64,000 bases of DNA from Laccaria trichodermophora (taxonomy: Eukaryota > Basidiomycota > Agaricomycetes > Agaricales > Hydnangiaceae): positions 496,001-560,000 of the forward strand of contig JACTVC010000001.1 in assembly GCA_018417955.1 (NCBI GenBank). Direction: 5' to 3'. Below the pieces are notes generated by a model. It was given only the letters and a program-made list of their open reading frames with translations. It made no database searches and had not been told where the DNA came from. Position 1 is the stretch's first letter. Each line of letters starts with the position of its first letter. Below are positions 39,720-62,073 of the stretch, one piece after another. The position numbers were made by a program, and so were the translations under genes.

Positions 39720-42700
39720 TCAAGGTGGAGGGATACCCAAGTCTCCCGAACCTTCACCCTTCTGCTTGGAAAGGGCAGCAAATCGAAAGATAGCAGGGTC
39801 CTGGGTTTCGTGAGCGGGCTCACTGCTGTCGGAAGAAAGTCGATGTGAGCCATTGGACTTAGCACATTTCCGAAACAAAGCTGAGTGGTCTAGAAATTCA
39901 ACAAGCTCGCATCGCAACAAGTTCCCAAAATGACTGTTCATTGATTTCACAAAGTCCTCTGGAAGCCATGGGGGGAGAGTGCAAGCTGAAACGGTATTGT
40001 GATGGCCTCTTACGACGAATGGCTTCCCTCCAGCAGACAGGAGGGAGAGCAGATAATGACACACTGGGCAGCAGAGTTTTGATATTCCAATAATTGGTCC
40101 AAAACCCTTTTAAAATAAATGAGACTCTAATGATAAAAACAAGTCGGTGTGCAACCCACCTTCATCTGTGCCAATATATCTCTGCTGAAAGTCGCTGTCT
40201 TGTCAAGAAGGCTTGCAAGACAAGCCTCGCAATGCAGCGTGCCCTTAAACTTACTTTGAGACGTCTCCAGAGAACCAAAAAGCTCACAGCTTGCCGACAG
40301 CGACTTGATATCTTCAGTGATTTTGCTAGATTCAATGACAGAAGCATTAAGCGCTTCAAGCAGTTTCGTTGCGGATGCGCTCCAGCCCTCAAATGTGCAG
40401 CGAATCAGTTGCGAAAGTGCAGTTTTGATCTCCCTTATATCGCTGGAGGTCGGACCATTAGGCCTGCCAGTCCAGCGCTTCTTGATACCCCTAATGAGAG
40501 AGGAATATTTAAAACCCTCCTGAAGAAAATCAAGTATCTCGTGGTTGGTTATGATGGCTTGGGATTTATGGAGAGAGGTCGCTGTGGTTGTTGTGGGAAA
40601 TAATGTCGGGTCCATGAGGAGCTCCTTCCATGGGAGTAAACGTTCGTCCATGGGTGGGGTGACCAAGACCTGAATAGAGATAGTGTGGTGTACGAAACTT
40701 GGCCCAGTGACATATGTAAGGAGAATATCTGCTGCATTGAAATGGGCTACCATGAGCCTGAGCCAGTCAAGAAAAGATCGCCACAGCGGCATCTTGATGC
40801 CATCTACTTCAACAAAACACTAGTGGCTACCACTGTTTATCATAATACTAAGGCATATGCCTAGAGCTAAATATCTATATCTCAAGCATAATTATGAAAG
40901 GCCTTTCATTTGACTTGCTTATGTCTCTCATTCATTTAAATGCTGGGCTTCACTCATAAGTTGTAGGAGAATTACCCTTGTGAATTTCATAAAGGTGGCT
41001 GGCAATTTCATTGCAGATTTTCATACTTATCTCTCAGTATTTCATTCTGAATTTCATATTTATCCCCACTGTTTTCATTGTGACTTTTCATTCTTCAGCT
41101 CTCAAGATTTCATTCTGAATTTCATACTTATCCCCACTGCTTTCATTGCAACTTTTCATTATTCAGCTGACAGAATTTCATTCTGAATTTCATATTTATC
41201 CCCACTGCTTTCATTGCAACTTTTCATTATTCAGCTCTCAATATTTCATTCTGAATGTTATACTTATCCCCACTGCTTTTATTGTGACTTTTCATTATTC
41301 AGCTCTCAACATTTCAATCTGAATTTCATATTTATTCCCACTGCTTTCATTGCGACTTTTCATTATTCAGCTCTCAGTATTTCATTCTGAATTTTGTATT
41401 TATCCCCACTGTTTTCATTGCAACTTTTCATATTTACCCCCAATATTTTCATTGGGATTGTTCAGATGTATCCCACATGTCAGGGTCCATGCAATGGGCT
41501 TCCATGGAAGTGGTCACATGACCAGTTACCAAAAATGGTCAAAAACAAAAGTTGTAGCCCTACAGTGTAGCTTCCCAAATCTGTTTGAATTGTATTCTGA
41601 AGTGCTCCCATTGTGGAGGTATGAGGTAAAGGAATGTCAAAAGTGTCGCGTTTTTTTTTGTATTTTGTGTTTTTCTCTATGAAAACAAAACCAAATAACA
41701 TGATTTCAGTATATTTAGAAAGCTAAAAGAAAGGGCTACAATTATTGTATCATGGGAAAAATGACCAAAAAAGGAAGGTGCATGCCCTACTATAACAGTC
41801 AGATATATGACAACAAAAAAGTCGGACTTATACTACATAGTTTACTGATGCACTATAAAAGACTACAAAAGTTGCACTTAGACTACAAAGTTAGGGTTAG
41901 GGCCAAAAGGTTATCTTGACTACAAAGTTTGTACTGTTTTCTTTTTGAAACTACAAAAGTTTGTAGTGTGCGCTTTTTCATTAGAAAAGTGTGTAGTGTC
42001 CGCTTTTTGAGACTACAAAAGTTTGTAGTGTGCGCTTTTTCATTAGAAAAGTTTGTAGTGTCCGCTTTTTAAGACTACAAAAGTTTGTAGTGTGCGCTTT
42101 TTCATTAGAAAAGTTTGTAGTGTCCGCTTTTTGAGACTACAAAAGTTTGTGGTGTCATCCTTTTCATTTAAAAAAGTTTGTAGTTGACATGTAGTTTAGG
42201 GTGTCTTTGGCCCTATCTATGTTATGGGATGAGGTTGAAGGATTGCCAGTGCTGCAGTATTAGTATTTGACATCATGCACTGTGGCTGAAGGATTGACAT
42301 GATATCATGAGTTTTTGACTTGATGCCCAAGTGGGCTTTTACACTGTCTGCTTTCACATTGATAGCTACTGGCCTGTCCCAAACATAGTCAACTTTGATA
42401 CAGCTCTTTGAGGGCTGTAAGATGATGGGCTGATTCACCCTTTGAGGTGTTCTAGGTCATGTTCTAAGTTGACTATGTATTGAGTAGATATTAACATAAA
42501 TAGCCTTCTCTAGATTCAAAGCCAACTTGGGCAAGATGTGATATATAATGGGCTGATTCATCCTTTGAGGTGTCTTTAAGTCAGGTCATGTTGCAAGCTG
42601 ACCATGTCTTGGGTAGATATCAACATGAATAGTCTTCTCTAGCTTGAAAGACACCTTGGGCATGATGTGAGAAACTGATGATATATACAGTGATGTCAAT

Positions 42701-45700
42701 CCTTCAGCCATATTTCCATATGAACTCACAATTATGTTTTCAGATAGCACAGTAGGTATCAATGGCCTTTCCTACTGTGAAAGACAACTTGTGCATGATG
42801 TCAAATACCAATGCTGCACCACTGGCAATCCTTCAACCTCATCCCATGACATAGATAGGGCCAAAGACACCATAAACTACATGTCAACTACAAACTTTTT
42901 TAAATGAAAAGGCAGACACTACAAACTCTTCTAATGAAAAAGTGCACACTACAAACTTTTGTAGTCTTAAAAAGTGGACACTACAAACTTTTTTTTAATG
43001 AGAAAGCAGACAGTACAAACATTTGTAGTCTTAAAAAGCGGACACTACAAACTTTTCTAATGAAAAAGCGCACACTACAAACATTTGTAGTCTCAAAAAG
43101 CGGACACTACACACTTTTCTAATGAAAAAGCGCACACTACAAACTTTTGTAGTTTCAAAAAGAAAACAGTACAAACTTTGTAGTCAAGATAACCTTTTGG
43201 CCCTAACTCTAACTTTGTAGTCTGAGTGCAACTTTTGTAGTCTTTTATAATGCATCAGTAAACTGTGTAGTATAAGTCTGACTTTTTTGTTGTCATATAT
43301 CTGACTGTTATAGTAGGGCATGCACCTTCCTTTTTTGGTCATTTTTCCCATGATACAATAATTGTAGCCCTTTCTTTTAGCTTTCTAAATATATTGAAAT
43401 CATGTTATTTGGTTTTGTTTTCATAGAGAAAAACACAAAATACAAAAAAAAACGCGACACTTTTGACATTCCTTTACCTCATATCTCCACAATGGGAGCA
43501 CTTCAGAATACAATTCAAACAGATTTGGGAAGCTACACTGTAGAGCTACAACTTTTGTTTTTGGCCATTTTTGGTAACTGGTCATGTGACCACTTCCATG
43601 GAAGCCCATTGCATGGACCCTGATATGTGGGATACATCTGAACAATCCTAATGAAAATATTGGGGGTAAATATGAAAAGTTGCAATGAAAACAGTGGGGA
43701 TAAATATGAAATTCAGAATGAAATACTGAGAGCTGAATAATGAAAAGTCACAATGAAAGCAGTGGGGGTAAATACAAAATTCAGAATGAAATACTGAGAG
43801 CTGAATAATGAAAAATCGCAATGAAAGCAGTGGGAATAAATATGAAATTCAGATTGAAATGTTGAGAGCTGAATAATGAAAAGTCACAATGAAAGCAGTG
43901 GGAATAAATATGAAATTCAGAATGAAATACTGAGAGCTGAATAATGAAAAGTCACAATGAAAGCAGTGGGGATAAGTATAACATTCAGAATGAAATATTG
44001 AGAGCTGAATAATGAAAAGTTGCAATGAAAGCAGTGGGGATAAATATGAAATTCAGAATGAAATTCTGTCAGCTGAATAATGAAAAGTTGCAATGAAAGC
44101 AATGGGGATAAGTATGAAATTCAGAATGAAAAGTCACAATGAAAACAGTGGGGATAAATATGAAATTCAGAATGAAATACTGAGAGATAAGTATGAAAAT
44201 CTGCAATGAAATTGCCAGCCACCTTTATGAAATTCACAAGGGTAATTCTCCTACAACTTATGAGTGAAGCCCAGCATTTAAATGAATGAGAGACATAAGC
44301 AAGTCAAATGAAAGGCCTTTCATAATTATGCTTGAGATATAGATATTTAGCTCTAGGCATATGCCTTGGTATTATGATAAAAGTGGTAGCCACCAGTCGA
44401 CAAAAGGTTGGACCACGTTGAGATCTTTGTTGGGTTCCTCCTGCTCTTCACCAGGCGCTGGTGTTGGCATTGTGATTTTGCTGCCGAGGTTCAAGCTCCT
44501 GAGCAAAGGAGCAATCATTTTCAGGTGCATTGGGAGGGCAGCACCTTTAGTGAGCCTATGAAGTGCATATCCATATATGACGACGCGCTCCACTTCGTCT
44601 TTGATATTCTGGGGGCTCTGAGTTGAATCCTTCAGCCCACGCCGGTAATTCACCAGTACCTTCAAAGATGACTGAAAGCATAGCAGGAGCTGCACCAACA
44701 ATTGATGAAACTCCAGGCATGTGTCTTGGGTGTAGAGCCGAAAGGCACTGCAGCCCTCGATGGCCAATGGCACGTTGGTTTTCTCCATTATTTTTGGGAT
44801 TGAGATGTGGAGCACTGGAGCTGCAAGTGGCAGGAAGGTGGTCAGGAATAGTATATCACTTTCAGCCCCCTCTTTTTGCTCCTGATCAAGCTTAGACTCT
44901 TCGAATGTAAAGGTCTGTATTTGTTTCAGGGCCTCAATAAGGGGCACTGACAAAGTCTTGTGGTCTAGCTGATGAATCATCTTCAGGTAACAAGTGGCAA
45001 CAACGTAGCATAGAAGGCGGGCAGAGTCATCGCTGGAGGATTTTGCAGGACCTTCGGCAGAGTGCCTCTTCATAGTAAGCAACCTGCCCAGGATCCATAG
45101 GTGCCTGGACATGGTCGAGTGGCTCCTATTGTATAGAAGGCGAAAACTGATAAGCATGTACTCCAGTAAGATTACACTGCCCTCACCAGTATTGGTCAAC
45201 CCACAGCTTTAGCTCATCGTCAGCCAACTCGAGGGCAGCCAAGGTCCCTGCATCATTGATGATGGGTTTTCCGACTGGGAGGTTCATTTCTTTACTATCC
45301 TGACGATAATTCTGGGTGAAGAGAAGATGCCAAATTTGGGACGTGAGTCCTGGCTGGGGCGGTGTAATAGCAGGGACCTCGATGGCAGGGGCTTGGGTGC
45401 AGGCAGTGATCTCAAGCACCTCAGAAGTGCGCTTCGTTACAATTGCAACGACCTCATTCTCCATGACGGCGATAGTAGAAAATGCGTTGGATATCTTGAG
45501 TTCCATGCAATCTGGTTGAGGTTGCTTCGATGGTGTAACCTGGAACTTCCGCTGCTGTTGTATCGGCTCAAGCAATGCGGTAATGGTGCGGAATGCAAGA
45601 ATGTTTTTTGTGATCTCATTAGATTCGTCTGTGGTCTGAGGGACGCTAGGTGGGGCACCACTAGGCGGGTTGTTGTTCAATGTATCCTGTGTGTGCCAGG

Positions 45701-46023
45701 CTTGTACACCGCTGTGAGGTTCATCGCTGTTCTTGCCCCGATTAAAGATTCCTGACGCTTTGTGGAGGATACTTCTCATTATGTAGAATCTGATCGAGTT
45801 CAAAGGATCAAGCAGCAAAACCAATGGACCAATATGAGGGACCAAGCTTCGATTAAGCCCTAATAACAGGCATTAGCTCGAGTTAGACAGGGAGAATAAG
45901 AAGAATACATACAACCTTGAAGAGGATGGTTGGTGAATGGTGGCTTAGCGACGTCGGAGTTACATAATATGTCCACTCAATAGCCGATAGATCGCAATCA
46001 CATTCGCCTTTCTCCATTGTCAT
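39720..46023 (-). pseudogene. OTT_1508-like deaminase gene, split by palindromic element 1
   Basis: Minus-strand exons run from a provisional ATG at 46021-46023 to TGA 39720-39722. The N-terminal part reads VVWLNRSLVPHIGPLVLLLD (across an intron). A middle exon (45,150-44,406) includes SRHLWILGRLL and LVQLLLCFQSSLKVLVNYRR. Its end, NVVQPFV, continues in frame past the 3.6-kb insertion (40,818-44,399) as EVDGIKMPLWRSFLDWLRL. The C-terminal exons carry LHCEACLASLL (H-x-E) and, after an intron, GISKLCCPVCHYLLSLL (CPxxC), the zinc site of the deaminase fold. PPWLPEDFVKSMNSHFG follows. This fits the fungal OTT_1508-like deaminases, probably acting on nucleic acid or nucleotide bases; the substrate is unknown. 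Apart from the insertion I see no stop. It diverges from the KDZ transposase. Confidence 0.7.
40818..44399. mobile_element. Giant palindromic element 1 (3.58 kb)
   Basis: The left end CACTAGTGGCTACCAC and right end GTGGTAGCCACCAGTCG are inverted, with 6-bp ACAAAA repeats outside (40,812-40,817; 44,400-44,405). The arms (about 40,818-42,290 and 42,810-44,399) are near-identical reverse complements around a loop of about 500 bp. From the outside in, each arm has: the end segment; a TTTCATT-rich array (TATCCCCACTGCTTTCATTG units); a block of about 300 bp shared with elements 2 and 4 (GGTCACATGACC to GGAAGGTGCATGCCCTA); and a hairpin-unit array (ACTACAAAAGTTTGTAGTGT). No transposase is encoded. 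It sits inside the deaminase exon, whose frame is restored by its removal. Confidence 0.9.
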
Positions 46024-46183
46024 CTTCTCCACTTTCAAACCTAATGAAGGTCAGTCATAAAATGATCTGAAAAAGCTAAGGTTGCTGAGAATTCCGATGA
46101 ACACAGACTGAATCAAGCCAAACGACGAATTTCCTTTTTGGAAAACTGACTCCTCCTGCCTCTGTGACAGAATCTCTTCAATA
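46024..46183. promoter_or_regulatory. 160-bp divergent promoter region, deaminase / KDZ transposase
   Basis: It lies between the provisional deaminase ATG (46023, minus) and the KDZ ATG (46184, plus). No core element is recognised. The short spacing suggests the two genes are expressed together, if both starts are right. Confidence 0.45.
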
Positions 46184-46277
46184 ATGGGAAAAGGGCGCAC
46201 GGCGCAAACTGCATTGCCTGACTGTGAGTTTCTTTCATGCTGTTTATATATATTCAAGACTTAAGATACAAACTATC
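46184..46277 (+). pseudogene. KDZ transposase, 5' piece (exon 1 and start of exon 2)
   Basis: ATG 46184 begins MGKGRTAQTALPD (46,184-46,223). A 42-bp intron (GTGAGT...TTAAG, 46,224-46,265) leads to a codon completed across the junction and then TNY before the Gypsy insertion at 46,278. The frame continues exactly at 56,557 as QSVVELSDDCKK. The small exon is inferred from splice phase and context, so it is less certain than the downstream pieces. Confidence 0.55.
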
Positions 46278-46649
46278 TGTGAAACCGCAGTGTCGTCCTG
46301 GACTTCTTGAGGAATCCGTGAGCGAACGGAGTCAGAGGCGGAGTTAGGGAACGTGATTGGGAATAGAGTTGGTGGCGCTGTTCCGGATGGCAGAAGAGCG
46401 CCTAAGTTGTCCTGTAACCCCGAACTGGGGGCGCTGTCACCTGGCGCAGGGCTCTGATATCCCAGAGGGGAGGCGTAAGGCTGCCTAGCCACTAACCATA
46501 TTCGTGACCCAATCCACATGTTATATAAATGTCATGGTTAAAGGTAAAGTATCTACAGACGTACAAGACATTATATAATGTAACAAAACAATAGTAAATA
46601 CGATGGTTCAAGATCATGTAAGAGGTAGGGATAGCCGTACACCGTTACA
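46278..46649 (-). repeat. 3' LTR of the Gypsy-type element (372 bp)
   Basis: It differs from the other LTR at six sites, all CpG in one copy and TpG or CpA in the other (for example GAGCG/GAGTG, CCCAG/CCCGG, GTCAT/GTCGT). Confidence 0.95.
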
Positions 46650-46752
46650 AAGCCCCCCCATGAGACTGGAGCATCGTCAAAAATTCTGTAAATGAATGTC
46701 AGAACCACCTCTGTTTGCGTCATCGATGTTCCTCCTGTTCTTCGTCCCTTCT

Positions 46753-47339: not shown

Positions 47340-50300
47340 CATTAGTGGCTACCATTTAAATCATATAAAACTGGCAACTGTCAGCACAGTCATTTATTTG
47401 CAGCCAAGGTGTTTTATGATATGAAATGCCTAGGCAAACTTATGAAATCATTTCAATTTCATTTTCCTAGCCTATGTCATTTATCCCAGCTCCCTGTCAA
47501 TCATTCCAACCTTGATTTCATTTCCATTTCATTTGCTATTTCATTTGCTATTTCATTCCTACCCAGCCCTATATTTCATTGCTTGCCTGGTGCTGTATTT
47601 CATTGCTTCCTAGTGCGATGTTTTAGCTATTTCATTCCTACCCAGCCCTATATTTCATTGCTTGCCTGGTGCCATATTTCATTGCTTCCTAGTGTGATGT
47701 TTTAGCTATTTCATTCCTACCCAGCCCTATATTTCATTGCTTGCCTGGTGCCATATTTCATTGCTTCCTAGTGCGATGTTTTAGCTATTTCATTCCTACC
47801 CAGCCCTATATTTCATTGCTTGCCTGGTACCATATTTCATTGCTTCCTAGCGCGATGTTTTAGCTATTTCATTCCTACCCAGCCCTATATTTCATTGATT
47901 TCCTGGTGCTATATTTCATTGCTCCCTAGTGCGATGTTTTAGCTATTTCATTCCTACCCAGCCCTATATTTCATTGATTTCCTGGTGCTATATTTCATTG
48001 CTTCCTAGTGCGATGTTTTAGCTATTTCATTCCTACCCAGCCCTATATTTCATTGCTTGCCTGGTACCATATTTCATTGCTTCCTAGTGCGATGTTTTAG
48101 CTATTTCATTCCTACCCAGCCCCATATTTCATTGCTTGCCTGGTGCCATATTTCATTGCTTCCTAGTGCGATGTTTTAGCTATTTCATTCCTACCCAGCC
48201 CTATATTTCATTGATTTCCTGGTGCTATATTTCATTGCTCTCCTAGTGCGATGTTTTAGTGATTTCATTTCTTCCTGGCCTCATATTTCATTGCCTGCTT
48301 ACCTTGATGTTTTAGCCATTTCATTTCTACCTAATCCCATATTTCATTACTTGCCTGGGGCTATATTTCATTGCTTTCCTGGTGCAATGTTTTAGGCATT
48401 TCATTTTTTGTCAGGGATATTTCATTTCTTGCCTTGGGATATTTCACATCCATTTCATTCCTTGCCTGGGGCAATTTCATACCTACCCTACTGTGCCTCC
48501 TCACTGTTTCCCACACTCTGCTCACTGTTTTCAGGGTCCAAAAGCGCACTTCTAAATATGGAAATGTGCGCTTTTCTAAAAGAAAAATAGCAATAAAATA
48601 GGGAAAATATATGGGATGGTAGTACTCAAATTTGCAAGATTTGTATTTGTCAGGGTCCATTGGGGGATATCATGATATTGGTCACATGACCAATTACCAA
48701 AAATGGTCAAAAAATGAAAGTTGTAGCCCTACACCGTAGCTTCCTGAATCTGTTTAAATTATGTTCTGAAGTGCTCCCCTTGTGGATATATGAGGTAAAG
48801 GAATCCCAAAAGTGTCGTGTTTTTTTTTTGTTTTTTGCATTTTTCTCCATGAAAACAAAACCAAACAATATGATTTCAGTATATTTAGAAAGTTAAAAGA
48901 AAGAGCTACAGTTATTGTATCGTGGGGAAAATGACCAAAAAAGGAAGGTGCATGCCCTAGAAAAGGAATTGTCAGATATAGACTACCAAGTTTACTGATA
49001 GACTACAAAAAAGTTGGACTCAGACTATAAGGTTTACTGATAGACTACAAAAGACTACAAAAGTCAGACTTAGACTACCAAGTTTACTGATAGACTGCAA
49101 AAGTCAGATATAGACTACAAATTTCACTGATACACTACAAAGTTAGGGTTAGGGCTAAAAGGTTATCCAATAGCCCATCCATCCCATACATGGCACATAT
49201 TATGCAAAAGAGAGCATAAATGCCATTATAAAAGGTTGTTCTGTCCACTTTTGTGATTAGAAAAGTTTGTAGTGTCTGCTTTTTAGACTACAAAAGTTTG
49301 TAGTGTGTGCTTTTTTATTGGAAATAAAAGGTTGTCCTGTCCAATTTCATCATTAGAAAAGTTTGTAGTGTCCACTTTTGACTACAAAAGTTTGTAGTGT
49401 CCGCTTTTTTATTGGAAAAGTTTGTAGTGTCTGCTTTTTCATTGAAAAAGTGTGTAGTGTCTGCTTTTTTAGACTACAAAAGTTTGTAGTGTGTGCTTTT
49501 TTATTGGAAAAGTTTGGAAAAGTGTGTAGTGTCTACTTTTTCATTGAAAAAGTCTGTAGTGTCCGCTTTTTCAGACTACAAAAGTTTGTAGTGTCTGCTT
49601 TTTGAGACTACAAAAGTGTTTAGTTGGCATGTAAATGATGGTGTCCTTCGCCCTGTTTATGTTATGGGGATGAGATTGAAGGATTGACATGATCTTACAT
49701 ATTGCCAATGCTGCAGCATTACATTTTGACATCATGCACAAGTTGTCTTTCACATTAGGAAAGGCTATTCCAAACCTTTCATATTGGTACCTACAATCCT
49801 ATGTCAAAACATAATTATAAATTTATGTGGGGATATCGCTGGAGTATTGCCATGACTCTGTCAAGCCAGAGGAGGCCATTCATGTTGATATCTACTGTTT
49901 TGTCTCAATACATGGTCAACTTACAACATGATCTAACTTGAGGACAGCTCCAAGGATGAATTAGCTTATCATTCTATAGCACTCAAAGACCTGATATCCA
50001 AGTTGACTGACTATGTTTGGGACATGCCAGTAGCTATCAATGTGAAAGCAGGCATGATGTAAAAAAGTGATAATGTGGCAATAACAATATGAAAAATCAT
50101 GGCAATCCTTCAGCCATATCCCCACATGAATGTATAATTATGTTTGACATAGGATTGTAGGTACCAATATGAAAGGTTTGGAATAGCCTTTCCTAATGTG
50201 AAAGACAACTTGTGCATGATGTCAAAATGTAATGCTGCAGCATTGGCAATATGTAAGATCATGTCAATCCTTCAATCTCATCCCCATAACATAAACAGGG

Positions 50301-52306
50301 CGAAGGACACCATCATTTACATGCCAACTAAACACTTTTGTAGTCTCAAAAAGCAGACACTACAAACTTTTGTAGTCTGAAAAAGCGGACACTACAGACT
50401 TTTTCAATGAAAAAGTAGACACTACACACTTTTCCAAACTTTTCCAATAAAAAAGCACACACTACAAACTTTTGTAGTCTAAAAAAGCAGACACTACACA
50501 CTTTTTCAATGAAAAAGCAGACACTACAAACTTTTCCAATAAAAAAGCGGACACTACAAACTTTTGTAGTCAAAAGTGGACACTACAAACTTTTCTAATG
50601 ATGAAATTGGACAGGACAACCTTTTATTTCCAATAAAAAAGCACACACTACAAACTTTTGTAGTCTAAAAAGCAGACACTACAAACTTTTCTAATCACAA
50701 AAGTGGACAGAACAACCTTTTATAATGGCATTTATGCTCTCTTTTGCATAATATGTGCCATGTATGGGATGGATGGGCTATTGGATAACCTTTTAGCCCT
50801 AACCCTAACTTTGTAGTGTATCAGTGAAATTTGTAGTCTATATCTGACTTTTGCAGTCTATCAGTAAACTTGGTAGTCTAAGTCTGACTTTTGTAGTCTT
50901 TTGTAGTCTATCAGTAAACCTTATAGTCTGAGTCCAACTTTTTTGTAGTCTATCAGTAAACTTGGTAGTCTATATCTGACAATTCCTTTTCTAGGGCATG
51001 CACCTTCCTTTTTTGGTCATTTTCCCCACGATACAATAACTGTAGCCCTTTCTTTTAACTTTCTAAATATACTGAAATCATATTGTTTGGTTTTGTTTTC
51101 ATGGAGAAAAATGCAAAAAACAAAAAAAAAACACGACACTTTTGGGATTCCTTTACCTCATATATCCACAAGGGGAGCACTTCAGAACATAATTTAAACA
51201 GATTCAGGAAGCTACGGTGTAGGGCTACAACTTTCATTTTTTGACCATTTTTGGTAATTGGTCATGTGACCAATATCATGATATCCCCCAATGGACCCTG
51301 ACAAATACAAATCTTGCAAATTTGAGTACTACCATCCCATATATTTTCCCTATTTTATTGCTATTTTTCTTTTAGAAAAGCGCACATTTCCATATTTAGA
51401 AGTGCGCTTTTGGACCCTGAAAACAGTGAGCAGAGTGTGGGAAACAGTGAGGAGGCACAGTAGGGTAGGTATGAAATTGCCCCAGGCAAGGAATGAAATG
51501 GATGTGAAATATCCCAAGGCAAGAAATGAAATATCCCTGACAAAAAAATGAAATGACTAAAACATCGCACCAGGAAAGCAATGAAATATAGCCCAAGGCA
51601 AGTAATGAAATGGCTAAAACATCAAGGTAAGCAGGCAATGAAATATGAGGCCAGGAAGAAATGAAATCATTAAAACATCGCACTAGGAGAGCAATGAAAT
51701 ATAGCACCAGGAAATTAATGAAATATAGGGCTGGGGAGAAATGAAATGACTAAAACATCGCACTAGGAAGCAATGAAATATGGCACCAGGCAAGCAATGA
51801 AATATAGGGCTGGGTAGGAATGAAATGGCTAAAACATCACACCAGGAAGCAATGAAATATGGCACCAGGCAAGCAATGAAATATAGGGCTGGGTAGGAAT
51901 GAAATGGCTAAAACATCGCACCAGGAAGGAATGAAATACATCACAAGGCAAGCAATGAAATATAGGGCTGGGTAGGAATGAAATGGCTAAAACATCGCAC
52001 CAGGAAGCAATGAAATACATCACCAGGCAAGCAATGAAATATTGGGCTGGGTAGGAATGAAATGGCTAAAACATCGCACCAGGAAGCAATGAAATACAGC
52101 ACCAGGCAAGCAATGAAATGGAAATGAAATCAAGGTTTGAATGATTGACATGGAGCTGGGATAAATGACATAGGCTAGGAAAATGAAATTGAAATGATTT
52201 CATAAGTTTGCCTAGGCATTTCATATCATAAAAAACCTTGGCTGCAAATAAATGACTGTGCTGACAGTTGCCTATTTTATATGATTTAAATGGTAGGTAC
52301 CACTCC
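47340..52306. mobile_element. Giant palindromic element 2 (about 4.97 kb)
   Basis: Left end CATTAGTGGCTACCATTTAA; the right end is its degenerate complement TGGTAGGTACCACTC. The arms (about 47,340-49,830 and 50,130-52,306) hold: a 79-bp tandem array (CCTACCCAGCCCTATATTTC start; about eight steps on the left, fewer on the right); the shared block of about 300 bp; and the TACAAAAGTTTGTAG array. Short frames in opposite arms encode identical 60- and 75-residue strings, so stretches are identical at DNA level. TTAGGGTTAGGG lies once per arm (49,143; its complement near 50,805). Unlike the other elements no target duplication is visible (AAAGAG against GAACGG). Confidence 0.85.
47520..48420. repeat. 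79-bp tandem array, left arm of element 2
   Basis: CCTACCCAG repeats at 47,558, 47,637 and 47,716 and onward, about eight steps, decaying to the right. Its mirror image in the right arm (about 51,540-52,130) has fewer copies. Confidence 0.9.
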
Positions 52307-53320: not shown

Positions 53321-54149
53321 CACTAGTAGCTGCACTCTACATCGATGTATTTATGGCAGCTGCCGTGGCAAAACTTGATCAGCTACCGTGAGGGAATGAA
53401 ATGAAATTTCATTGATTCACAGCACCCATTTCATTCAAAATGATTCATTCTGTTTCATTGATTCACGGCAACTGTTTCATTCATTTCATTTCATTGATTC
53501 ACAGAAATTCCTTCATTTTTCATTTCATTCCACCACGGCAACTGTTTCATTCATTCCTTTATTGTTAGAGCTGGGAAAATTATTATGTAATTGATGTAAA
53601 ATATTAAAGTGCCTTATTTGGCAACAGTATGCCTATCTTGTTATGTATTTGAGCCTCAAATGCAAAAGTACTCCCATATGGCCTCCCACACCACTGCAGT
53701 AGGGCACAACACATATCAGGCATAATTGTATATTATTTCCTTATTTAGGTGTGTATTAAAACATCGAAATTGTTGCCTGAAAGATTGAAACAAAAATGAA
53801 ATAAAGAATGAAACAAAAATTCCATGGTAAGAATGAAACAAAAAATGAAACAAAGAATGAAATAGTTGCCAGGAACAAATGAAACAGAATAAACTTCATT
53901 CTTCCTGGTAGGAATGAAGAAAGGATTGAAATGAAATGGAATGAAACAAAAACGATTTCATTCTCCATGGCAATGAATGAAAAAAAATGAAACAGTTGCC
54001 GGGAATGAATGAAACAGAATAAATTATCTCAAATGAAACAGGTGCCGTGAATGAATGAAAACTTTGCATTTCATTCATTCACGGTAGCTGATCAAGTTTT
54101 TTTATGGCAGCTGCCATAACTACATCATGTAATTGGCAGCTACCAGTCA
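53321..54149. mobile_element. Palindromic element 3 (829 bp)
   Basis: Left end CACTAGTAGCTGCACTCTAC and right end GGCAGCTACCAGTCA, flanked by TTGAGT (53,315-53,320; 54,150-54,155). The arms pair over GGCAGCTGCC and TTGATCAGCTACCGTGA, then hold TTTCATTGATTCACGGCAAC-type repeats. It is a compact relative of elements 1, 2 and 4. Removing it with one TTGAGT restores the gag frame (NSGLN then NNETRVPAAS). Its first 150 bp match the partial element at 63,851 with a single difference. Confidence 0.85.
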
Positions 54150-56400
54150 TTGAGTCCTGAATTTACTGTATCAGGACCATTATTGGTAGTGGCAGTCCTT
54201 TTGGAAGGAGGTCCTACGGCGGACACACCGACTCTTCCTAATCCCGGTAGTCGAGTTACAGGATGTTTTCTGGACAATAGCACGGAAATGAAATTAGGGA
54301 TAGGAGGCTCAGTCGCAAATCGGACACCTTGACCTTCACTTGCTGCGTGGTTTCGCGCGATAGGAGGTCCTGTAGTAGAAGCAGTCGAACTACTGGAGGA
54401 GGCAGACTTAACTCCATCGTTATCCCTTAGTACGCGGGGTCGGTGTACCGAGAATTGCTGGGGTTTAGGGTGATCTTTATACGCTCTATCATGCAAATAT
54501 GCAGCGATTTCGACCAAGTCTTCCAGCATTTGATTGAAGTACTCCGGTCGGGCTAGCAGTTTCCCAACTTCCTTCCTAGCTGATCCAGTACTGTAGAGAG
54601 ACCGTAGGGACGATCTAGAAGATTCGTAGGAACTAATAGACATTTTATCTGTCTCTGCTCCGTACATTCGCATGAGAGCGTTGATCTCTCATACGAGATG
54701 CCCCTGGATGGTTCATACGCAGCGAAGTCCTTTATCGCGGAGCCTATAAATTCCCATCGACAATCCCGAGGCGTTTTATACACCATTTCGATGGCACACC
54801 TTAAACGGTCGCATTCAGACTTTTCTTGACCAGGTAATACACCATCGATAGCTCCTAGAGGCACTAGTAAGTCTTCATCCACAGCGGGGTTGAAGGTTCT
54901 GAACATTCGGTTCGCGGACTCCGAGATGGGTTCCACCCAAATAGGTATACTCTTTACTTCCTCGATGTCATAGAAAACTGAATGGAATGGAGAGGAATCT
55001 ACGAATATTCCCGACGTCTTCCTATGATGTTCATCATGTCCATGGCAGTTCTCATGATCGTGATGACTTTCAAGTTCATCCTGGTTCGGAGACGAAGTCC
55101 TAGTCTCGTCATCAGCATTCGTTGAGGGCGTTGGGTTTGAAGGAGCTGTGTGTTGAGATGCGCTACTGTAGGTAGGTTTGCCCTTCGCCTTGTTGACGTT
55201 GGAGGGTCTGGAGTTGCTCGCGCTCCGAGGAGCAGCGGGTGACTTTGTCGCACTCCCAGAGGGCGCGGGCATTCGACTCGCGCTTGTAGAAGCAGTGGGG
55301 TTCGAGGGGTTTTCGGAGTGAGGTCCTACGAGCACAGGTCCTGTATTGGGTAGCGGGTTGTTATTCGTAGAGGGAACAGAGTCGGGGTCAGGTTCCTCCG
55401 TCATAGCTACTCCTTTTCCTTTTTTCTTTGTCGTCAATGGGGTCACGATTTCGTGGCTAGCGGAGTTGTTCGTATTGCGCACTTTAGCTCTAGAGCTTTC
55501 GTCTCCAGCAGCGGGGGTCAGCGAGCTCATTGGAGAGAGAGGTAAGGAGGTCTGCTGGCAGCCACCGGGTTTAAATGGAGGCGGCTGATGGTCTGGGCGT
55601 AGGCACGGTGGGTACCCTTCAGGGTTCATGGTTGCTAGGGTCGTCCATGCTAGGGAGTTATAGCCGTCAGAGCCTCGAGTCTTGTCATTACTCGCGCATA
55701 TGCAGCGGGCATAGCTCGTTTCGTTTGGGAGAGAGGGTAGTATATCGTAGTTTAGGGATTTAGGCACGATCTGGACAATCGAAGACGAGGAGTCGTCGCT
55801 CCGTTGGAATGAGTTGCTACCTTTGAAAGCAGCGTATAATCACGCTATGGTAGGTTCAGGAATGGAGTGGACGGTGTGATGTTCCGAAGACTCGTCACTG
55901 CATAACGTCGTCAAGAACAATGTATCGTCGTTCTGCCAGGAAGTCCTGTTACCCTCGAAAGCAGCGGGTTTTCGCGCTAACGAGGGTACTGTGACAGTTC
56001 GGCTGGCTGGGTCAGTGGGATGCTCATCTTCGTCTGGTTGGGGAATTGTAAAGATGGTTGGTTCTCTGGGAATCGTCGTGAGTCGACGGATTTCGAAGAT
56101 TAGACTCACCTTGGGTCGGCTCTGCAAACTCCTGCACTCAAGGACTTCATCTTGATGAAGTCCACGGTGCCCCCACCATTGTGAAACCGCAGTGTCGTCC
56201 TGGACTTCTTGAGGAATCCGTGAGCGAACGGAGTCAGAGGCGGAGTTAGGGAACGTGATTGGGAATAGAGTTGGTGGCGCTGTTCCGGATGGCAGAAGAG
56301 TGCCTAAGTTGTCCTGTAACCCCAAACTGGGGGCGCTGTCACCTGGCGCAGGGCTCTGATATCCCGGAGGGGAGGCGTAAGGCTGCCTAGCCGCTAACCA
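54150..56400 (-). pseudogene. Gag N-terminal piece of the Gypsy-type element
   Basis: The minus-strand frame starts in or near the 5' LTR and includes WWGHRGLHQDEVLECRSLQS, TVTVPSLARKPAAFEGNRTS, a TGA at about 55,840 where the frame continues as LYAAFKGSNSFQRSDD, then RMFRTFNPAVDEDLLVPLGA and KTPRDCRWEFIGSAIKDFAA. A one-base frame change near 54,690 precedes MRMYGAETDKMSISSYE, which runs on to element 3. With a stop and a frameshift this copy is inactive. Confidence 0.7.
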
Positions 56401-56551
56401 TATTCGTGACCCAATCCACATGTTATATAAATGTCGTGGTTAAAGGTAAAGTATCTACAGACATACAAGACATTATATAATGTAACAAAACAATAGTAAA
56501 TACGATGGTTCAAGATCATGTAAGAGGTAGGGATAGCCGTACACCGTTACA
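56180..56551 (-). repeat. 5' LTR of the Gypsy-type element (372 bp)
   Basis: Identical in length to the copy at 46,278-46,649, with six CpG-site transitions. The target duplication CTATC follows at 56,552-56,556. Confidence 0.95.
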
Positions 56552-56556
56552 CTATC

Positions 56557-57347
56557 AATCAGTTGTAGAGTTGTCGGATGACTGCAAGAAGGTTCAATGT
56601 AACATATGCGAAGCACTGTGTGGGCAAAATAACGGTTGGATCAAGAAAGAAAGTTTAACTTATCACTTGAAGTCGGATGTTCATGCCCGTTCTGTCTGTG
56701 CCCTGCAGGATAGGGACACTATTCGAACCGCTGGGGAACAGTCTTTGCAAGAAGAAAGCGCCATTGAGAGCATGGACTTCGCTACATTGTCTTCAGCAAT
56801 GGAACTGGCAGTGATGACGAAGGCACCTGTTTCCAAACGAAGTATGGAAGAACAAGAAATGTGGGATGACAGCGCATTTCTCAATGAGACCTTCAGTGCA
56901 GGAATCGACCATACAGCTGCTGCAGCTGAAGAAAGGAGGCGCGTGGAGAAAGAAGCCACCAATTTTGATCTCTGGCACAGTGCTGATTTTCTTCCTGAAG
57001 AAGACCCAAACGATGGCGAATTACTGCTTGATGAACTGGAACAGGACAATATCCTGATCGAGTTGCTACGGAATGCACATCTGTATATCTCTCGATTTCG
57101 TTCATAGGGTTCAATTCATCTCATATTTTGGATAGACTTGAATGCTCCTGAAGGGGCTGACATACTTGACGAGGAGGCGCAAGGTTGCACAAGTCGACCT
57201 GAAGCGTCTGAAGCTTGGTCGCCATACGAATCCAAGATGGTGAGTTGACCCTTCGACACACAGATCAACAATCACTAAGTATGCTCTCCATTCCTTGTAT
57301 CTAGATGTTTCTCCTTGACACTCTGGACAACCTTCCCAGAATGCGCA
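56557..57347 (+). pseudogene. KDZ transposase, N-terminal piece with C2H2-like finger
   Basis: After the Gypsy target duplication the frame reads QSVVELSDDCKKVQCNICEA, LCGQNNGWIKKESLTYHLKS and DVHARSVCALQ, a C-x2-C...H-x5-H finger likely used for end binding. Long acidic helices follow (EEQEMWDDSAFLNETFSAGI, DPNDGELLLDELEQDNILIE). Two introns lead to LNAPEGADILDEEAQG, AWSPYESKM and FLLDTLDNLPRM, where palindromic element 4 interrupts. The wording matches the N-terminal half of Agaricomycete KDZ (Kyakuja-Dileera-Zisupton) transposases. Confidence 0.75.
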
Positions 57348-60300
57348 CTAGTGGCTACCACTAGTTATCATATAAAACAGGTAACTGCCTATAGGTCCCT
57401 GTGTATCCATCCACACTCTTTATGATAGGGAATCATTACTGTTACCATGTTTTTTCATTATCATAAAGGCTGCGCTTTTTCATTAAGTGTAGGCAAGGTT
57501 TTGGGCCTCCCTCATAAGGTAGCCTGTGGTTATCATTACCAATTTCATATCTTTTCAAAGCCATATCATTGCAATTTTCATTAGTTGTCTGGCAAGTATC
57601 ATTGGATATTTCATTAACTACATGGGTGATATCATTTTGCGATTTTCAATGGTTACTTTGGCAATATCATTGGAAATTTCATAAGCTACTTGGGCAATAT
57701 CATTGCGATTTTCATAAATTATGTGGCCAGTATCATTGGAAATTTCATTAGCTGGTTGTGCAATATCATTGGCAATTTCATTAGCTACTTGGGCGACATC
57801 ATTGCGATTTTCATTAGCTACTTGGGCAATATCATTGTGATTTTCATTAGCTCCTTTGGCAATATCATTGGAAATTTTATTAGTTACTTGGGCAATATCA
57901 TTGTGATTTTCATTAGCTACTTGGGCGACATCATTGTGATTTTCATTAGCTACTTGGGCAATATCATTGCGATTTTCATTAACTACTTGGGCAATATTAT
58001 TGGTGATTTTTAGTAATCAGGAGAGTGGTCACATGACCAAACTCCAAAAGGGGTCAAAAAAACCAAAGTTGTAGCCCTGCACTGTAGCTTCCCAAATCTG
58101 TTTGAATTATGTTCTGAAGTGCTCCTGTTGTGGAGATATGAGGTAAGTGAATGTCAAAAGTGTCGCATTTTTTTTTTGTTTTTTGTGTTTTTCTCCATGA
58201 AAACAAAACCAAATAACATAATTTCAGTATATTTAGAAAGCTAAAAGAAAGGGCTACAATTATTGTATCATGGGAAAAATGACCAAAAAAGGAAGGTGCA
58301 TGCTCTACTATAAGATTCAGATATAGATTTACTGATAGACTACAAAAAAGTCGGACTTAGACTACACAGTTTACTGATACCCTATAAAAGACTACAAAAG
58401 TCAGACTTAGACTATAAAGTTTGCTGATAGACTACAAAAGACTACAAAGTTTACTAATACACTACAAAAGACTACCAAATTTACTGATAAACTACAAAAA
58501 AGTCAGACTTAGACTACAAAGTTTACTGATAGACTATAAAAGACTACAAAAGTCGGACTTAGACTACAAAAGCTTAGATTTACACTACAAAGTTAGAGTT
58601 AAGGTCAAAAGGTTATCTTGACTACAAAGTTTGTAGTGTCTGCTTTTTGTCATTAGAAAAGTTTGTAGTGTCCGCTTTTTGTCATTACAAAGGTTTGTAG
58701 TGTGCGCTTTTTCATTAGAAAAGTTTGTAGTGACCACTTTTTGAGACTACAAAAGTTTGTAGTGTGCGCTTTTTCATTAGAAACATTTGTAGTGTCCGCT
58801 TTTTTTGTAATTACAAAGGTTTGTAGTGTGCGCTTTTTCATTAGAAAAGTTTGTAGTGTCTGCTTTGTTTATCATTACAATGGTTTGTAGTGTGTGCTTA
58901 TTCATTAGAAAAGTTGGCAGTCTGTTTTTTGGGACTACAAAATCTTGTAGTGTGTGCTTTTTTATTAGAAGAGTTTGTAGCGTCTACTTTTTCATTTAAA
59001 AAGTTTGTAGTTGACATGTAGATTATGGTGTCTCCATCTATGTTATGGGGATGAGGTTGAAGGATTGCCATCATATGCCAGTGCTGCAGCATTAGTTTTT
59101 GGCATCATCCACAAGTTGTCTTTCACATTAGGAAAAGCCTTTCATATTGATACCTCATGTGAGGATATGGCTGAATGATTGACATGACTTTACAAATTGC
59201 TATTGCAACATCATCAGTCTCTCACATCATTCCCAAGTTGGCTATCAAGCTACAGGACACTATTCATGTTGATACCTACTCAATACATGCTCAACTTACA
59301 ACATGACCTCACTTAAAGACACCTCCAAGGATGAATCAACTCATCATCCTATAGCCCTCAAAGAGCTGTATCAAAGTTGACTATGCTTGGGACAGTGTGA
59401 GAGCCAACTTGGTCATGATGTCAAAAACTGGTGATGTCATGTCAATCCTTCAGCCATCCCCACATGAACTTACAATTATGTTTTAAGATATGACAGTAGG
59501 TAGTAATATGAAAGGCTGAGTCCTAAGGTGAAAGACAACTTGTGGATGATGCCAAAAACTAATGCTGCAGCACTGGCATATGATGGCAATCCTTCAACCT
59601 CATCCCCATAACATAGATGGAGACACCATAATCTACATGTCAACTACAAACTTTTTAAATGAAAAAGTAGACACTACAAACTCTTCTAATAAAAAAGCAC
59701 ACACTACAAGATTTTGTAGTCTCAAAACAGACACTGCCAACTTTTCTAATGAATAAGCACACACTACAAACCATTGTAATGATAAACAAAGCAGACACTA
59801 CAAACTTTTCTAATGAAAAAGTGCACACTACAAACCTTTGTAATTACAAAAAAAGCGGACACTACAAATGTTTCTAATGAAAAAGCGCACACTACAAACT
59901 TTTGTAGTCTCAAAAAGTGGTCACTACAAACTTTTCTAATGAAAAAGCGCACACTACAAACCTTTGTAATGACAAAAAGCGGACACTACAAACTTTTCTA
60001 ATGACAAAAAGCAGACACTACAAACTTTGTAGTCAAGATAACCTTTTGACCTTAACTCTAACTTTGTAGTGTAAATCTAAGCTTTTGTAGTCTAAGTCCG
60101 ACTTTTGTAGTCTTTTATAGTCTATCAGTAAACTTTGTAGTCTAAGTCTGACTTTTTTGTAGTCTATCAGTAAATTTGGTAGTCTTTTGTAGTGTATTAG
60201 TAAACTTTGTAGTCTTTTGTAGTCTATCAGCAAACTTTATAGTCTAAGTCTGACTTTTGTAGTCTTTTATAGGGTATCAGTAAACTGTGTAGTCTAAGTC

Positions 60301-62067
60301 CGACTTTTTTGTAGTCTATCAGTAAATCTATATCTGAATCTTATAGTAGAGCATGCACCTTCCTTTTTTGGTCATTTTTCCCATGATACAATAATTGTAG
60401 CCCTTTCTTTTAGCTTTCTAAATATACTGAAATTATGTTATTTGGTTTTGTTTTCATGGAGAAAAACACAAAAAACAAAAAAAAAATGCGACACTTTTGA
60501 CATTCACTTACCTCATATCTCCACAACAGGAGCACTTCAGAACATAATTCAAACAGATTTGGGAAGCTACAGTGCAGGGCTACAACTTTGGTTTTTTTGA
60601 CCCCTTTTGGAGTTTGGTCATGTGACCACTCTCCTGATTACTAAAAATCACCAATAATATTGCCCAAGTAGTTAATGAAAATCGCAATGATGTTGCCCAA
60701 GTAGCCAATGAAATTTCCAATGATATTGCCAAAGGAGCCAATGAAAATCGCAATGATATTGCCCAAGTAGCTAATGAAAATTGCAATGATGTCACCCAAG
60801 TAGCTAATGAAATTGCCAATGATATTGCCCAAGTAACTAATGAAATTTCCAATGATATTGCCAAAGGAGCTAATGAAAATCACAATGATATTGCCCCAGT
60901 AGCTAATGAAAATCACAATGATATTGCCCAAGTAACTAATAAAATTTCCAATGATATTGCCAAAGGAGCTAATGAAAATCACAATGATATTGCCCAAGTA
61001 GCTAATGAAATTGCCAATGATATTGCACAACCAGCTAATGAAATTTCCAATGATACTGGCCACATAATTTATGAAAATCGCAATGATATTGCTCAAGTAG
61101 CTAATGAAAATCACAATGATGTCGCCCAAGTAGCTAATGAAATTGCCAATGATATTGCATAACCAGCTAATGAAATTTCCAATGATACTGGCCACATAAT
61201 TTATGAAAATCGCAATGATATTGCCCAAGTAGCTAATGAAAATCACAATGATGTCGCCCCAGTAGCTAATGAAAATCACAATGATATTGCCCAAGTAACT
61301 AATAAAATTTCCAATGATATTGCCAAAGAAGCTAATGAAAATCACAATGATATTGCCCAAGTAGCTAATGAAAATCACAATGATGTTGCCCAAGTAGCTA
61401 ATGAAATTGCCAATGATATTGCCCAAGTAGCTAATGAAAATCACAATGATATTGCGCAAGTAATTAATATAATTTCCAATGATATTGCCAAAGGAGCTAA
61501 TGAAAATCGCAATGATATTGCCCAAGTAGCTAATGAAAATCGCAATGATATTGTCCAAGTTGCTAATGAAAATCACAATGATATTGCCCCAGTAGCTAAT
61601 GGAAATCACAATGATGTTGCCCAAGTAGCTAATGAAATTGCCAATGATATTGCACAACCAGCTAATGAAATTTCCAATGATACTGGCCACATAATTTATG
61701 AAAATCGCAATGATATTGCCCAAGTAGCTTATGAAATTTCCAATGATATTGCCAAAGTAACCATTGAAAATTGCAAAATGATATCACCCATGTAGCTAAT
61801 GAAATATCCAATGATACTCGCCAGACAACTAATGAAAATTGCAATGATATGGCTTTGAAAAGATATGAAATTGGTAATGATAACCACAGGCTACCTTATG
61901 AGGGAGGCCCAAAACCTTGCCTACACTTAATGAAAAAGTGCAGCCTTTATGATAATGAAAAAACATGGTAACAGTAATGATTCCCTATCATAAAGAGTGT
62001 GGATGGATACACAGGGACCTATAGGCAGTTACCTGTTTTATATGATAAAAGTGGTAGCCACCAGTCG
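57348..62067. mobile_element. Giant palindromic element 4 (4.72 kb) with unequal arrays
   Basis: Left end CACTAGTGGCTACCACTAG and right end GTGGTAGCCACCAGTCG, flanked by AATGCG (57,342-57,347; 62,068-62,073; GAATGCG if the preceding base is counted). Arms: end segment; a 33-bp array (GCTACTTGGGCAATATCATT start); the shared block of about 300 bp; the TACAAAAGTTTGTAG array; then a central unpaired loop near 59,150-59,530. The 33-bp array is about 0.43 kb in the left arm (57,590-58,020) and about 1.14 kb in the right (60,655-61,800). Removing the element with one repeat joins LPRM to RVSNSIMNIFLWVLRKAG, restoring the transposase frame. Confidence 0.9.
60655..61800. repeat. Expanded 33-bp tandem array, right arm of element 4
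   Basis: Units of CCCAAGTAGCTAATGAAA and ATCGCAATGATATTG alternate with variants (CCAAAGGAGCTAATG; CCACATAATTTATG). The minus strand is open for about 360 codons of an 11-residue repeat (IISYLGN/IFISYLG-like), which is explained by the 33-bp period and not taken as a gene. Confidence 0.9.
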
Positions 62068-62073
62068 AATGCG

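Follow-up and report, generated by a model that had tools for sequence, protein, structure and literature searches.

How can a mobile element be moved that is palindromic over kilobases and encodes no recognisable protein, and how do its two arms stay alike? Both questions are raised by the DNA analysed here, a window of 64,000 bp from Laccaria trichodermophora (contig JACTVC010000001.1, positions 496,001 to 560,000), which holds four complete elements and the start of a fifth (E1 to E5; Table 1). An earlier note on this DNA had described them as a family of giant palindromic mobile elements with one terminal sequence in common, moved by an enzyme acting in trans. We consider it highly probable that E1, E2 and E4 belong, as non-autonomous DNA transposons, to the KDZ (Kyakuja-Dileera-Zisupton) lineage, with a KDZ transposase acting in trans and an architecture like that of Foldback and Galileo elements. 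The little-studied KDZ transposases would then gain giant Foldback/Galileo-like non-autonomous partners. The elements also provide a natural test of how palindromes, which are expected to be unstable, stay intact.

Elements in the window and their anatomy

Table 1. Coordinates of the elements and their parts (window positions).
Feature	Position	Strand	Description
E1	40818-44398	+	Palindromic, non-autonomous, 3581 bp; left end of 5' type, right end of 3' type
E1 target duplication	left 40811-40817; right 44399-44405	+ (left)	AACAAAA left, GACAAAA right; 6/7 match
E1 left-arm array	41006-41453	+	68-bp unit, inward TTTCATT motifs; right-arm array 43672-44131
E1 core module, left copy	41509-41807	+	Inverted right copy 43296-43594
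E2	47340-52305	+	Palindromic, non-autonomous, 4966 bp; without matching target duplication
E2 left-arm array	47547-48298	+	79-bp unit; right-arm array 51631-52119
E2 core module, left copy	48679-48982	+	Inverted right copy 50969-51272
E3	53321-54148	+	MITE-like, 828 bp; arms ~212 bp at 79%; flanks GTTGAGT/ATTGAGT, 6/7
E4	57346-62066	+	Palindromic, non-autonomous, 4721 bp; exact 7-bp duplication
E4 target duplication	left 57339-57345; right 62067-62073	+ (left)	GAATGCG; exact
E4 left-arm array	57563-58010	+	33-bp unit and multiples
E4 right-arm array	60644-61850	-	36.5 copies of 33-bp unit; 2.7x the length of the left array
E4 core module, left copy	58019-58335	+	Right copy 60319-60635, inverted, identical
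E5	63851-64000	+	Start of 828-bp E3-family element; whole in locus L061, exact duplication TGCAATC

E1 to E4 lie where they had been placed, with their ends corrected to 44398, 52305, 54148 and, for E4, 57346-62066. E1, E2 and E4 are long inverted repeats, as described, and their longest ungapped arms are 1089 nt at 95%, 1405 nt at 100% and 1497 nt at 95% identity; E3, with its short arms, is not palindromic from end to end. Mirrored inverted-repeat coverage is 0.75 for E1, 0.91 for E2, 0.53 for E4 and 0.51 for E3. The arms are near-identical in their cores only, the two arrays of E4 differing in length (448 vs 1207 bp). The size of E1, E2, E4 and of their palindromic copies (2.4-6 kb) does set these apart from ordinary MITEs; E3 and E5, which are MITE-like with arms matching at ~80%, are of ordinary MITE size, and E5 is not a partial element, since the whole of it is present just beyond the window edge.

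The E1/E2/E4-type intervals have a mirrored coverage of 0.53-0.99. Made up for the most part of inverted repeat, and with tandem arrays inside the arms of the window elements, they have the architecture of Foldback elements. Coverage is lower in L015 (0.37), in L031 (0.33), in L028 (0), which is a chimera, and in three long intervals (C12, C76 and L071, 0.02-0.20). The E4 core module has 745 candidate places in the genome at first look, 40 of which were scored.

That the palindromes encode no recognisable protein was borne out by the longer open frames scanned in and around the elements. Three inside E4 are translated array, and their Pfam matches all fall below the curated cut-offs; Pfam gave no match for an open frame extending into E2, and found nothing when ten open frames around the elements were scanned. 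A search of Rfam at the gathering threshold found no match in 40800-64000. As the earlier note suggested, inverted arms of this length could in addition be a source of siRNAs for RNA silencing.

Common termini and target-site duplications

The terminal sequence is common to the family, as had been claimed: the 15-base pattern SACTRSTRGCTRCCA has 355 exact matches in the 59 Mb searched, against 1 for the reversed pattern. The termini read CA..TC, the 3' terminus being ..CAGTC, and 52 of 56 paired intervals carry one 5' and one 3' end; none of the 4 with like ends has a matching duplication. Exact 7-bp duplications flank 39 of the 52 fetched intervals having one end of each type, compared with 0 of 2652 mismatched flank pairs in the control. 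From the same tips no exact duplication of 6, 8 or 9 bp was found (0/52), and when the boundary was moved by one base on either side the eighth base matched in 11/39 and 8/39, near one in four. Further genomic copies that share these ends and duplications are therefore present, whereas their absence would have spoken against a family of mobile elements. The duplications that the earlier note had read as 6 bp in three elements are real, and the comparison of many copies rules out that length in favour of 7 bp, exact in E4 and matching at 6/7 in E1 and E3. The flanks of E2 (AAAAGAG/CGAACGG) differ at 4 positions and form no duplication. Membership of CACTA, for which duplications of 2-3 bp are expected, was rejected because the duplication here is 7 bp long.

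Empty sites are evidence of insertion, which is clear in the case of E3 (98%) and weaker for E4 and E1. Together with the exact duplications, the differing 5' and 3' tips and the unequal arrays, they argue against the inverted repeats being assembly artefacts caused by unsplit hairpin reads or misjoins. This explanation is extremely improbable and is rejected for the family, although L040, both ends of which are of the 5' type and whose flanks are in part inverted-symmetric (246/298), may be an artefact, and contig C75 repeats an element and near flanks of C23.

Transposase-coding elements with the same ends

The earlier note was right that an enzyme has to act in trans. KDZ-coding elements with the same ends exist; none with close ends was found for E1, E2 or E3. 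One, on C3 (744725-755617, 10.9 kb), has both tips, an exact flanking duplication (CAGGAAG) and array-bearing inverted arms of ~775 bp at 79%. It encodes CxC2 (PF18803, E=1.5e-40) and, split over two frames with E=3.6e-40 for one and 8.2e-4 for the other, KDZ (PF18758); for its C-terminal frame, Laccaria amethystina, at 62% identity, is the only organism named among 120 listed relatives. A second, on C18 (630098-641863), has a KDZ match of 137.3 bits with one stop inside it (PF18758) and CxC2 at E=4.2e-41 (PF18803). Both thus have the KDZ transposase domain and the CxC-type zinc cluster of the KDZ superfamily, and Pfam scans of their listed frames found no other transposase. These relatives are ~11-12 kb long, with CxC2 and KDZ placed between long, array-filled terminal repeats (~0.8-1 kb). 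Matching duplications are absent in two of the three KDZ-coding elements examined (C18 and C77, the KDZ coding of the latter being placed by coordinates only).

Over 168 bases, the end of the C18 element is 98% identical to that of the palindromic L016 and 97% to that of L015, both of which have exact duplications. The C18 element also matches the arm of E4 at 77% over 1374 columns, and its end matches that of E4 at 87%. Past the tip, the identity of the C3 element to E1 is 72% (118 columns) and to E4 74-75% (95-96 columns), and E2 and E3 gave no match to it. The palindromes are assigned to KDZ because of the same-tipped C3 element and the 97-98% end match of the C18 element, and a KDZ transposase is most likely what moves them, a step that we infer from these sequences.

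It is improbable that another superfamily (P/Galileo-like, 7-bp hAT or CACTA) moves the palindromes and that the likeness of their ends to those of KDZ elements reflects convergence or capture. Duplications of 7 bp are also made by Galileo (PMC3573991, in the text available) and by fungal hAT7 (PMC12730594, likewise), the elements start with the five bases CACTA, reminiscent of the superfamily of that name, and the C3 ends beyond the tip are as distant as given above. Against this stand the KDZ coding within two elements having the same 5' and 3' tips, the near-identity of the C18 end to the ends of two palindromes, and the want of any other transposase in the listed frames of these two elements; EnSpm/CACTA duplications are given as 3 bp in the accessible part of PMC12730594, vs 7 bp here.

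The arrays are alike in both kinds of element. Inward TTTCATT motifs in the two arms number 18/20 in E1, 39/26 in E2, 11/11 in E4, 33/31 in the C3 element and 21/22 in the C18 element, with 0-1 on the opposite strand of the same arms; the background is 12 on both strands in window positions 1-40000. L071 (9.7 kb, mirrored coverage 0.02) has an exact duplication but only 1 and 4 motifs. Since KDZ-coding elements with these ends bear the same array-filled terminal repeats, the anatomy of the palindromes has a source in the genome. Neither of the KDZ elements that were read contains the common core module, which therefore has a source other than those.

Two further candidates were discarded. At C8:138112, which had been taken for a parent of E3, a KDZ match lies close to an end of E3 type. 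The element there is a palindrome of E3 type, 3933 bp long and mirrored at 96.1% over 3931 bases, whose left end overlaps the KDZ match; it is no autonomous parent. TET/JBP does not lie within the C3 element, as 0 of 76 genome matches fall inside and the nearest is 1.4 kb outside.

Relation to known systems

The KDZ-coding elements share a KDZ transposase and a length of ~9-11 kb with Kyakuja and the KDZ elements of Cryptococcus, and the CxC zinc cluster with the latter. According to the accessible text of PMC12730594, Kyakuja of Agaricomycotina has 7-bp duplications, CA..TG termini and no terminal inverted repeats. The 7-bp duplications and the 5' terminus CA agree with this, whereas the array-filled inverted repeats of ~0.8-1 kb and the 3' terminus ..CAGTC do not; because of the CA..TC termini and long inverted repeats, the elements are filed as KDZ only and not as Kyakuja. 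KDZ1-3 of Cryptococcus have repeats of 139-241 bp, CxC1 and duplications of 4-8 bp (PMC12810828, in the part available). Zisupton makes 8-bp duplications (PMC12730594, as far as accessible), a length found exact in none of the 52 intervals here. Palindromic derivatives are not named in the available text of either KDZ paper (PMC12730594, PMC12810828), and a literature search with partial journal coverage found no report of them.

Likenesses to Galileo, on the available text of PMC3573991, are the long, internally repetitive terminal repeats, copies consisting of two repeats only, 7-bp duplications, chimeric copies between non-matching 7-mers, and chromosomal inversions. Galileo belongs to the P superfamily and to Drosophila, a host of a different kingdom, and a conserved difference between 5' and 3' tips was not found in that text. 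Like the Foldback element Tetris, the palindromes are modular and non-autonomous, with tandem repeats in long inverted arms, and as Tetris is related to a MITE that shares its tips, so the large palindromes are to E3 (PMC4079207, abstract). They differ in being fungal and linked to KDZ; the abstract identifies no autonomous partner for Tetris. Like MITEs, they lack coding capacity and have ends in common with a transposase-coding element, which fits E3; E1, E2, E4 and their palindromic copies differ in size and in that inverted symmetry extends, in most of them, over the greater part of the element.

Sameness of the sister arms

In most copies examined the halves are nearly identical, yet the two tips stay different. 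Sister cores differ at 16 of 7599 sites (0.2%) within 25 elements, compared with a median of 8.1% between different elements. Variants private to one element occur in both arms 34 times and in one arm 9 times; L017 and L018 contribute 14 of the 34. It is unlikely that the arms are alike without conversion, either because the copies are young and were born with identical arms or because assembler or polisher collapsed them. Polishing can equalise repeats, the nearest other core lies at 0-2.6% for 24 of 26 copies, and the private variants of E1 are all in one arm (4, with 0 in both). However, the isolated L017 and L018 still have identical sister cores (0 vs 6.0% and 0 vs 7.5% to the nearest), variants in both arms outnumber those in one, the arrays of E4 are unlike the product of a folded read, and E3-family copies in the same assembly retain, at many columns, differences between their arms that are fixed in all of them (18 of 18).

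A possible mechanism

We propose that the palindromes retain two array-bearing arms together with the common core and centre. Supplied in trans, a KDZ transposase would recognise two tips, CACTAGTGGCTACC of the 5' type and GACTGGTGGCTACC of the 3' type, and its cut, staggered by 7 bp, would allow the element to insert; the TTTCATT arrays may bind the transposase or a host factor. The system would thus define a pair of unlike tips, a cut of 7 bp and a repeated motif that is a candidate for binding. Arm-to-arm gene conversion, or recombination through a hairpin or cruciform, could keep the arms equal. The outermost ~20 bp would stay unlike because the two tips must differ, and may either be spared by conversion or, once converted, be selected against.

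More tentatively, and with considerable doubt, the transposons may homogenise themselves. During each move or after it, the kilobase arms would be recopied onto each other by way of an intermediate (hairpin, cruciform or gap repair) that arises in KDZ transposition, and the palindrome would thereby be rebuilt; the outermost ~20 bp would be excluded because one 5' and one 3' tip are needed for transposition. If true, this would be a mode of DNA transposition that maintains palindromes, and an engine for making inversions in fungi.

Recent movement and a possible rearrangement

L033 and L034 (3244 bp) are identical once one of them is reverse-complemented, and each has a different exact duplication; the pair records a recent jump. 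Copies may also rearrange chromosomes. On C56, between 1791118 and 1820335, one pair of copies encloses 20 kb, and their target duplications are swapped, the pattern expected from an inversion; the enclosed stretch appears to be inverted, the swapped duplications probably being the trace of this event. In a scan for swapped duplications among 14 flank entries of duplication-less elements, only L010/L011 fit at 0-1 mismatch, and two further pairs fit at 2 mismatches.

Sample, ends and target duplications

The palindromic elements are real, abundant and recently mobile; most probably they represent a new variant, of foldback type, among elements mobilised by KDZ. The genome-wide end search proposed in the earlier note, run over 59 Mb in 77 contigs, found other copies with the same ends and target duplications. 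Copies were picked from four end searches (40 scored candidates each), mainly at sites with two facing ends, single-ended hits being largely left out. Stretches without a pair of recognised ends were dropped (L045, L062, L067, L068 and L021/L022 on C5), L001-L008 were left out, and the C8 and C77 elements were handled separately. The resulting set holds 56 paired intervals, four of them within the window, which spans C1:496001-560000. L013 and L014 are one element with near flanks, present on two contigs, which suggests a haplotig or duplicate contig.

The shared terminal sequence claimed earlier is borne out by 355 genome occurrences of SACTRSTRGCTRCCA versus one of the reversed pattern. One 5'-type and one 3'-type end are present in 52 of the 56 intervals, and 39 of these 52 have exact 7-bp duplications when the true right end of the C3 element is used (E3 family 17/18, E2 family 3/7, others 19/27). 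None is exact at 6, 8 or 9 bp measured from the same tips; the target duplications claimed earlier exist, but their 6-bp length does not stand. One mismatch is seen in four intervals (L046, L047 and the window's E1 and E3), two in L039 and three or more in eight. When left flanks were compared with the right flanks of other copies, 0 of 2652 pairs were exact and one had a single mismatch. Flanks of the like-ended intervals L013, L014, L028 and L040 differ at 5-7 positions. L028, an E1-type end joined to an E4-type end, is a subfamily chimera; L040, with two 5'-type ends, is either an inverted duplication on a large scale or a product of folded assembly.

Coordinates and properties of the elements, empty sites and other features
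Feature	Location	Arms, flanks or match	Inward TTTCATT per arm (opposite)
E1	window 40818-44398		18 + 20 (0)
E2	window 47340-52305		39 + 26 (0 and 1)
E3, MITE-like	window 53321-54148		9 + 7 (2 and 2)
E4	window 57346-62066		11 + 11 (0)
C3 KDZ element (L069/L070)	C3:744725-755617	tips CACTAGTGGCTACC and GACTGGTGGCTACC; CAGGAAG on either side; arms ~775 bp, 79%	33 + 31 (0)
C18 KDZ element	C18:630098-641863	arms 943 bp, 97.6%	21 + 22 (0)
C77 KDZ element	C77:1407156-1419227	KDZ at 1415785	
L072, E3-type	C8:138457-142389	3933 bp; palindromic over 3931 bases, 96.1%; flanks AACAAGT/GACAAGT (6/7)	
L013/L014	C75 (25.8 kb) and C23:1586203-1590484		
L033, L034	C19:474026-489144	identical over 3244 bp	
L011, E4-type	C56, within 1791118-1820335	5' flank TCTCTGC, 3' flank TGTCGCC	
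L010, E4-type	C56, within 1791118-1820335	5' flank TGTTGCC, 3' flank TCTCTGC	
L040	C76:396282-400170	flanks partly inverted-symmetric, 246/298	
E3 joined flanks	C49:142294-142593	98%, 300/300 bases	
E4 joined flanks	C56:1189130-1189408	76%, bases 15-300	
E4 joined flanks	C45:1821841-1822119	75%, bases 15-300	
E1 joined flanks	C56:1191422-1191610	85%, bases 1-189	
372-bp repeat	window 46278-46649 and 56180-56551	98.4% identical	
321-bp unit, three in tandem	window 35506-36466	87% matches	
Chitin-synthase frame	window 14534-15745	51-55% identity to the named relatives	

Element anatomy and shared modules

The long inverted repeats described for E1, E2 and E4 are present. By self-BLAST, mirrored coverage is 0.69-0.99 in E1-, E2- and E4-type intervals, apart from the window's E4 (0.53), L015 (0.37), L031 (0.33) and the chimera L028 (0). 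It is 0.02-0.20 in the long intervals on C12, C18, C76 and C3 and in L071, all of which except L071 have other sequence between terminal arms. Arms of the E3 family (18 intervals) measure ~174-239 bp at 77.6-80.2% identity and make up 0.44-0.59 of element length. L072, a near full-length E3-type palindrome, stands at the margin of a match to KDZ transposase. The palindromes may act as siRNA sources.

TTTCATT points almost exclusively inward in the arms, as counted in 11 elements, both these elements and the arm lengths being of our own choosing; L071 is the exception (1 and 4). Shuffled sequences average at most 0.70 per arm, window positions 1-40000 hold 12 on both strands, and the interiors of the C3 and C18 elements hold 3 (8893 bp) and 6 (8966 bp). 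The array units differ (68 bp in E1, 79 bp in E2, 33 bp in E4), so the motif is what the arrays have in common, and it may be bound by the transposase. E1-, E2- and E4-type elements share a 317-base core, one per arm where whole; a first look gave 745 candidate genome places, and all 40 scored were at 90% or above. The core was not found in the C3 or C18 KDZ elements, both of which were compared. Centres of E1 and E2 match that of E4 at ~70-78% in longer stretches.

Empty sites and recent movement

Empty sites were sought for E1, E3 and E4. The joined E3 flanks match one place on C49 without interruption, five further places at 83-88% and, among the matches listed, eleven at 65-74% over parts; on C14 they match at 98% with ~4 kb between, parting at bases 181-188. 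The joined E4 flanks are matched across the junction at base 150 on C56, C45 and also C51 (78%, bases 108-300). The E1 match on C56 likewise spans the junction, and 25 bases on a second match (79%) covers bases 152-300, bases 152-189 being matched twice.

Two pairs bear on recent movement and REARRANGEMENT. L033 and L034, ~12 kb apart, are identical and have exact duplications of different sequence; at least one insertion must therefore be very recent, and the pair is a very recent local transposition. L011 and L010 lie in opposite orientations with ~20 kb between, and swapping their flanks yields one exact and one 6/7 duplication, consistent with the two elements having recombined and inverted the stretch between them.

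KDZ-coding elements

KDZ in fungi was reportedly first described by Iyer and colleagues in 2014. PF18758 (KDZ) has at least 182 matches here, with 150 of its 355 candidates scored, against none in 14 control genomes; with 76 TET/JBP matches, the genome is rich in KDZ and TET genes. The C3 element, whose arms are composed of TTTCATT arrays, contains CxC2 and KDZ frames, as does the C18 element, with one stop within its KDZ match. A 222-base end of the C18 element is 98% identical to L016 and 97% to L015 (168 bases each), both of which have exact target duplications, and 87% identical to the window's E4 over 222 bases. The C77 element has such ends, which alone were read, its KDZ being placed by coordinates. 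A duplication is present in one of these three (C3); the two flanks of the C77 element do not match each other, nor do those of the C18 element. Judged from these sequences, a KDZ transposase is likely the enzyme of the elements.

Homogeneity of the arms

Among 38 elements longer than 1.5 kb, both cores were sufficiently long in 26, and in 24 of these no core of another element is closer than the sister core, whichever arm is taken; the exceptions are the window's E1 (one arm) and L030 (both arms). The L033 and L034 cores tie because the elements are identical. Sister arms differ at 16 of 7599 aligned core sites (25 elements, L033 excluded), and left arms of different elements by a median of 8.1% over 300 pairs, which cross several families and whose nearest neighbours are often only 0-2.6% apart. 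Element-private variants number 34 in two arms and 9 in one; L017 (9), L018 (5) and L034 (4) supply 18 of the 34, and the window's E1 shows the opposite trend (0 two-arm, 4 one-arm). Arm identity could alternatively reflect recent common origin, or assembly.

In columns 26-180 the arms of 18 E3-family copies differ in 18.1% of cells, mainly fixed, versus 0.4% in nine E1-type and six E4-type elements (9 of 14 E1-type intervals; 6 of 9 with E4-type ends, L015-L018 excluded). The two ends are unlike at tip positions 1 and 5 in all E3-, E1- and E4-type elements compared, because intervals were selected for one end of each type. Beyond the search pattern, the ends differ at positions 18-19 in nearly all E4-type elements, and at position 18 in nearly all E1-type elements too; these differences, with the 52 of 56 unlike-ended intervals, are the selection-independent tip evidence. 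We read the pattern as probable arm-to-arm conversion that spares the tips or is selected against there.

Comparison with known systems

Comparison drew on portions of PMC12730594, PMC12810828, PMC12510652, PMC3573991 and PMC4079207. As described there, Kyakuja has 7-bp duplications, CA..TG termini and no inverted repeats, and Zisupton 8-bp duplications (both PMC12730594). The Laccaria lineage shares the 7-bp duplication and CA start with Kyakuja but departs from that description in its long inverted repeats and in ending ..CAGTC; we therefore file it in KDZ, with the group unnamed. As far as these portions go, its behaviour parallels that of Galileo and Foldback elements, and the signature of L028, a chimera flanked by non-matching 7-mers, is also described for Galileo (PMC3573991). 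Nothing found here supports membership of the P superfamily, which lay outside the scope of the search.

Other features of the window

The 372-bp repeat lies in inter-element DNA. The 321-bp tandem copies have no relation to the palindromic elements; a frame there resembles, by eye, one at C76:347584-348363. Among the 120 relatives listed for the chitin-synthase frame, those that are named belong to the Agaricales and point to a probable agaric host: Psilocybe, Sphagnurus, Collybia, Termitomyces and Blastosporella.
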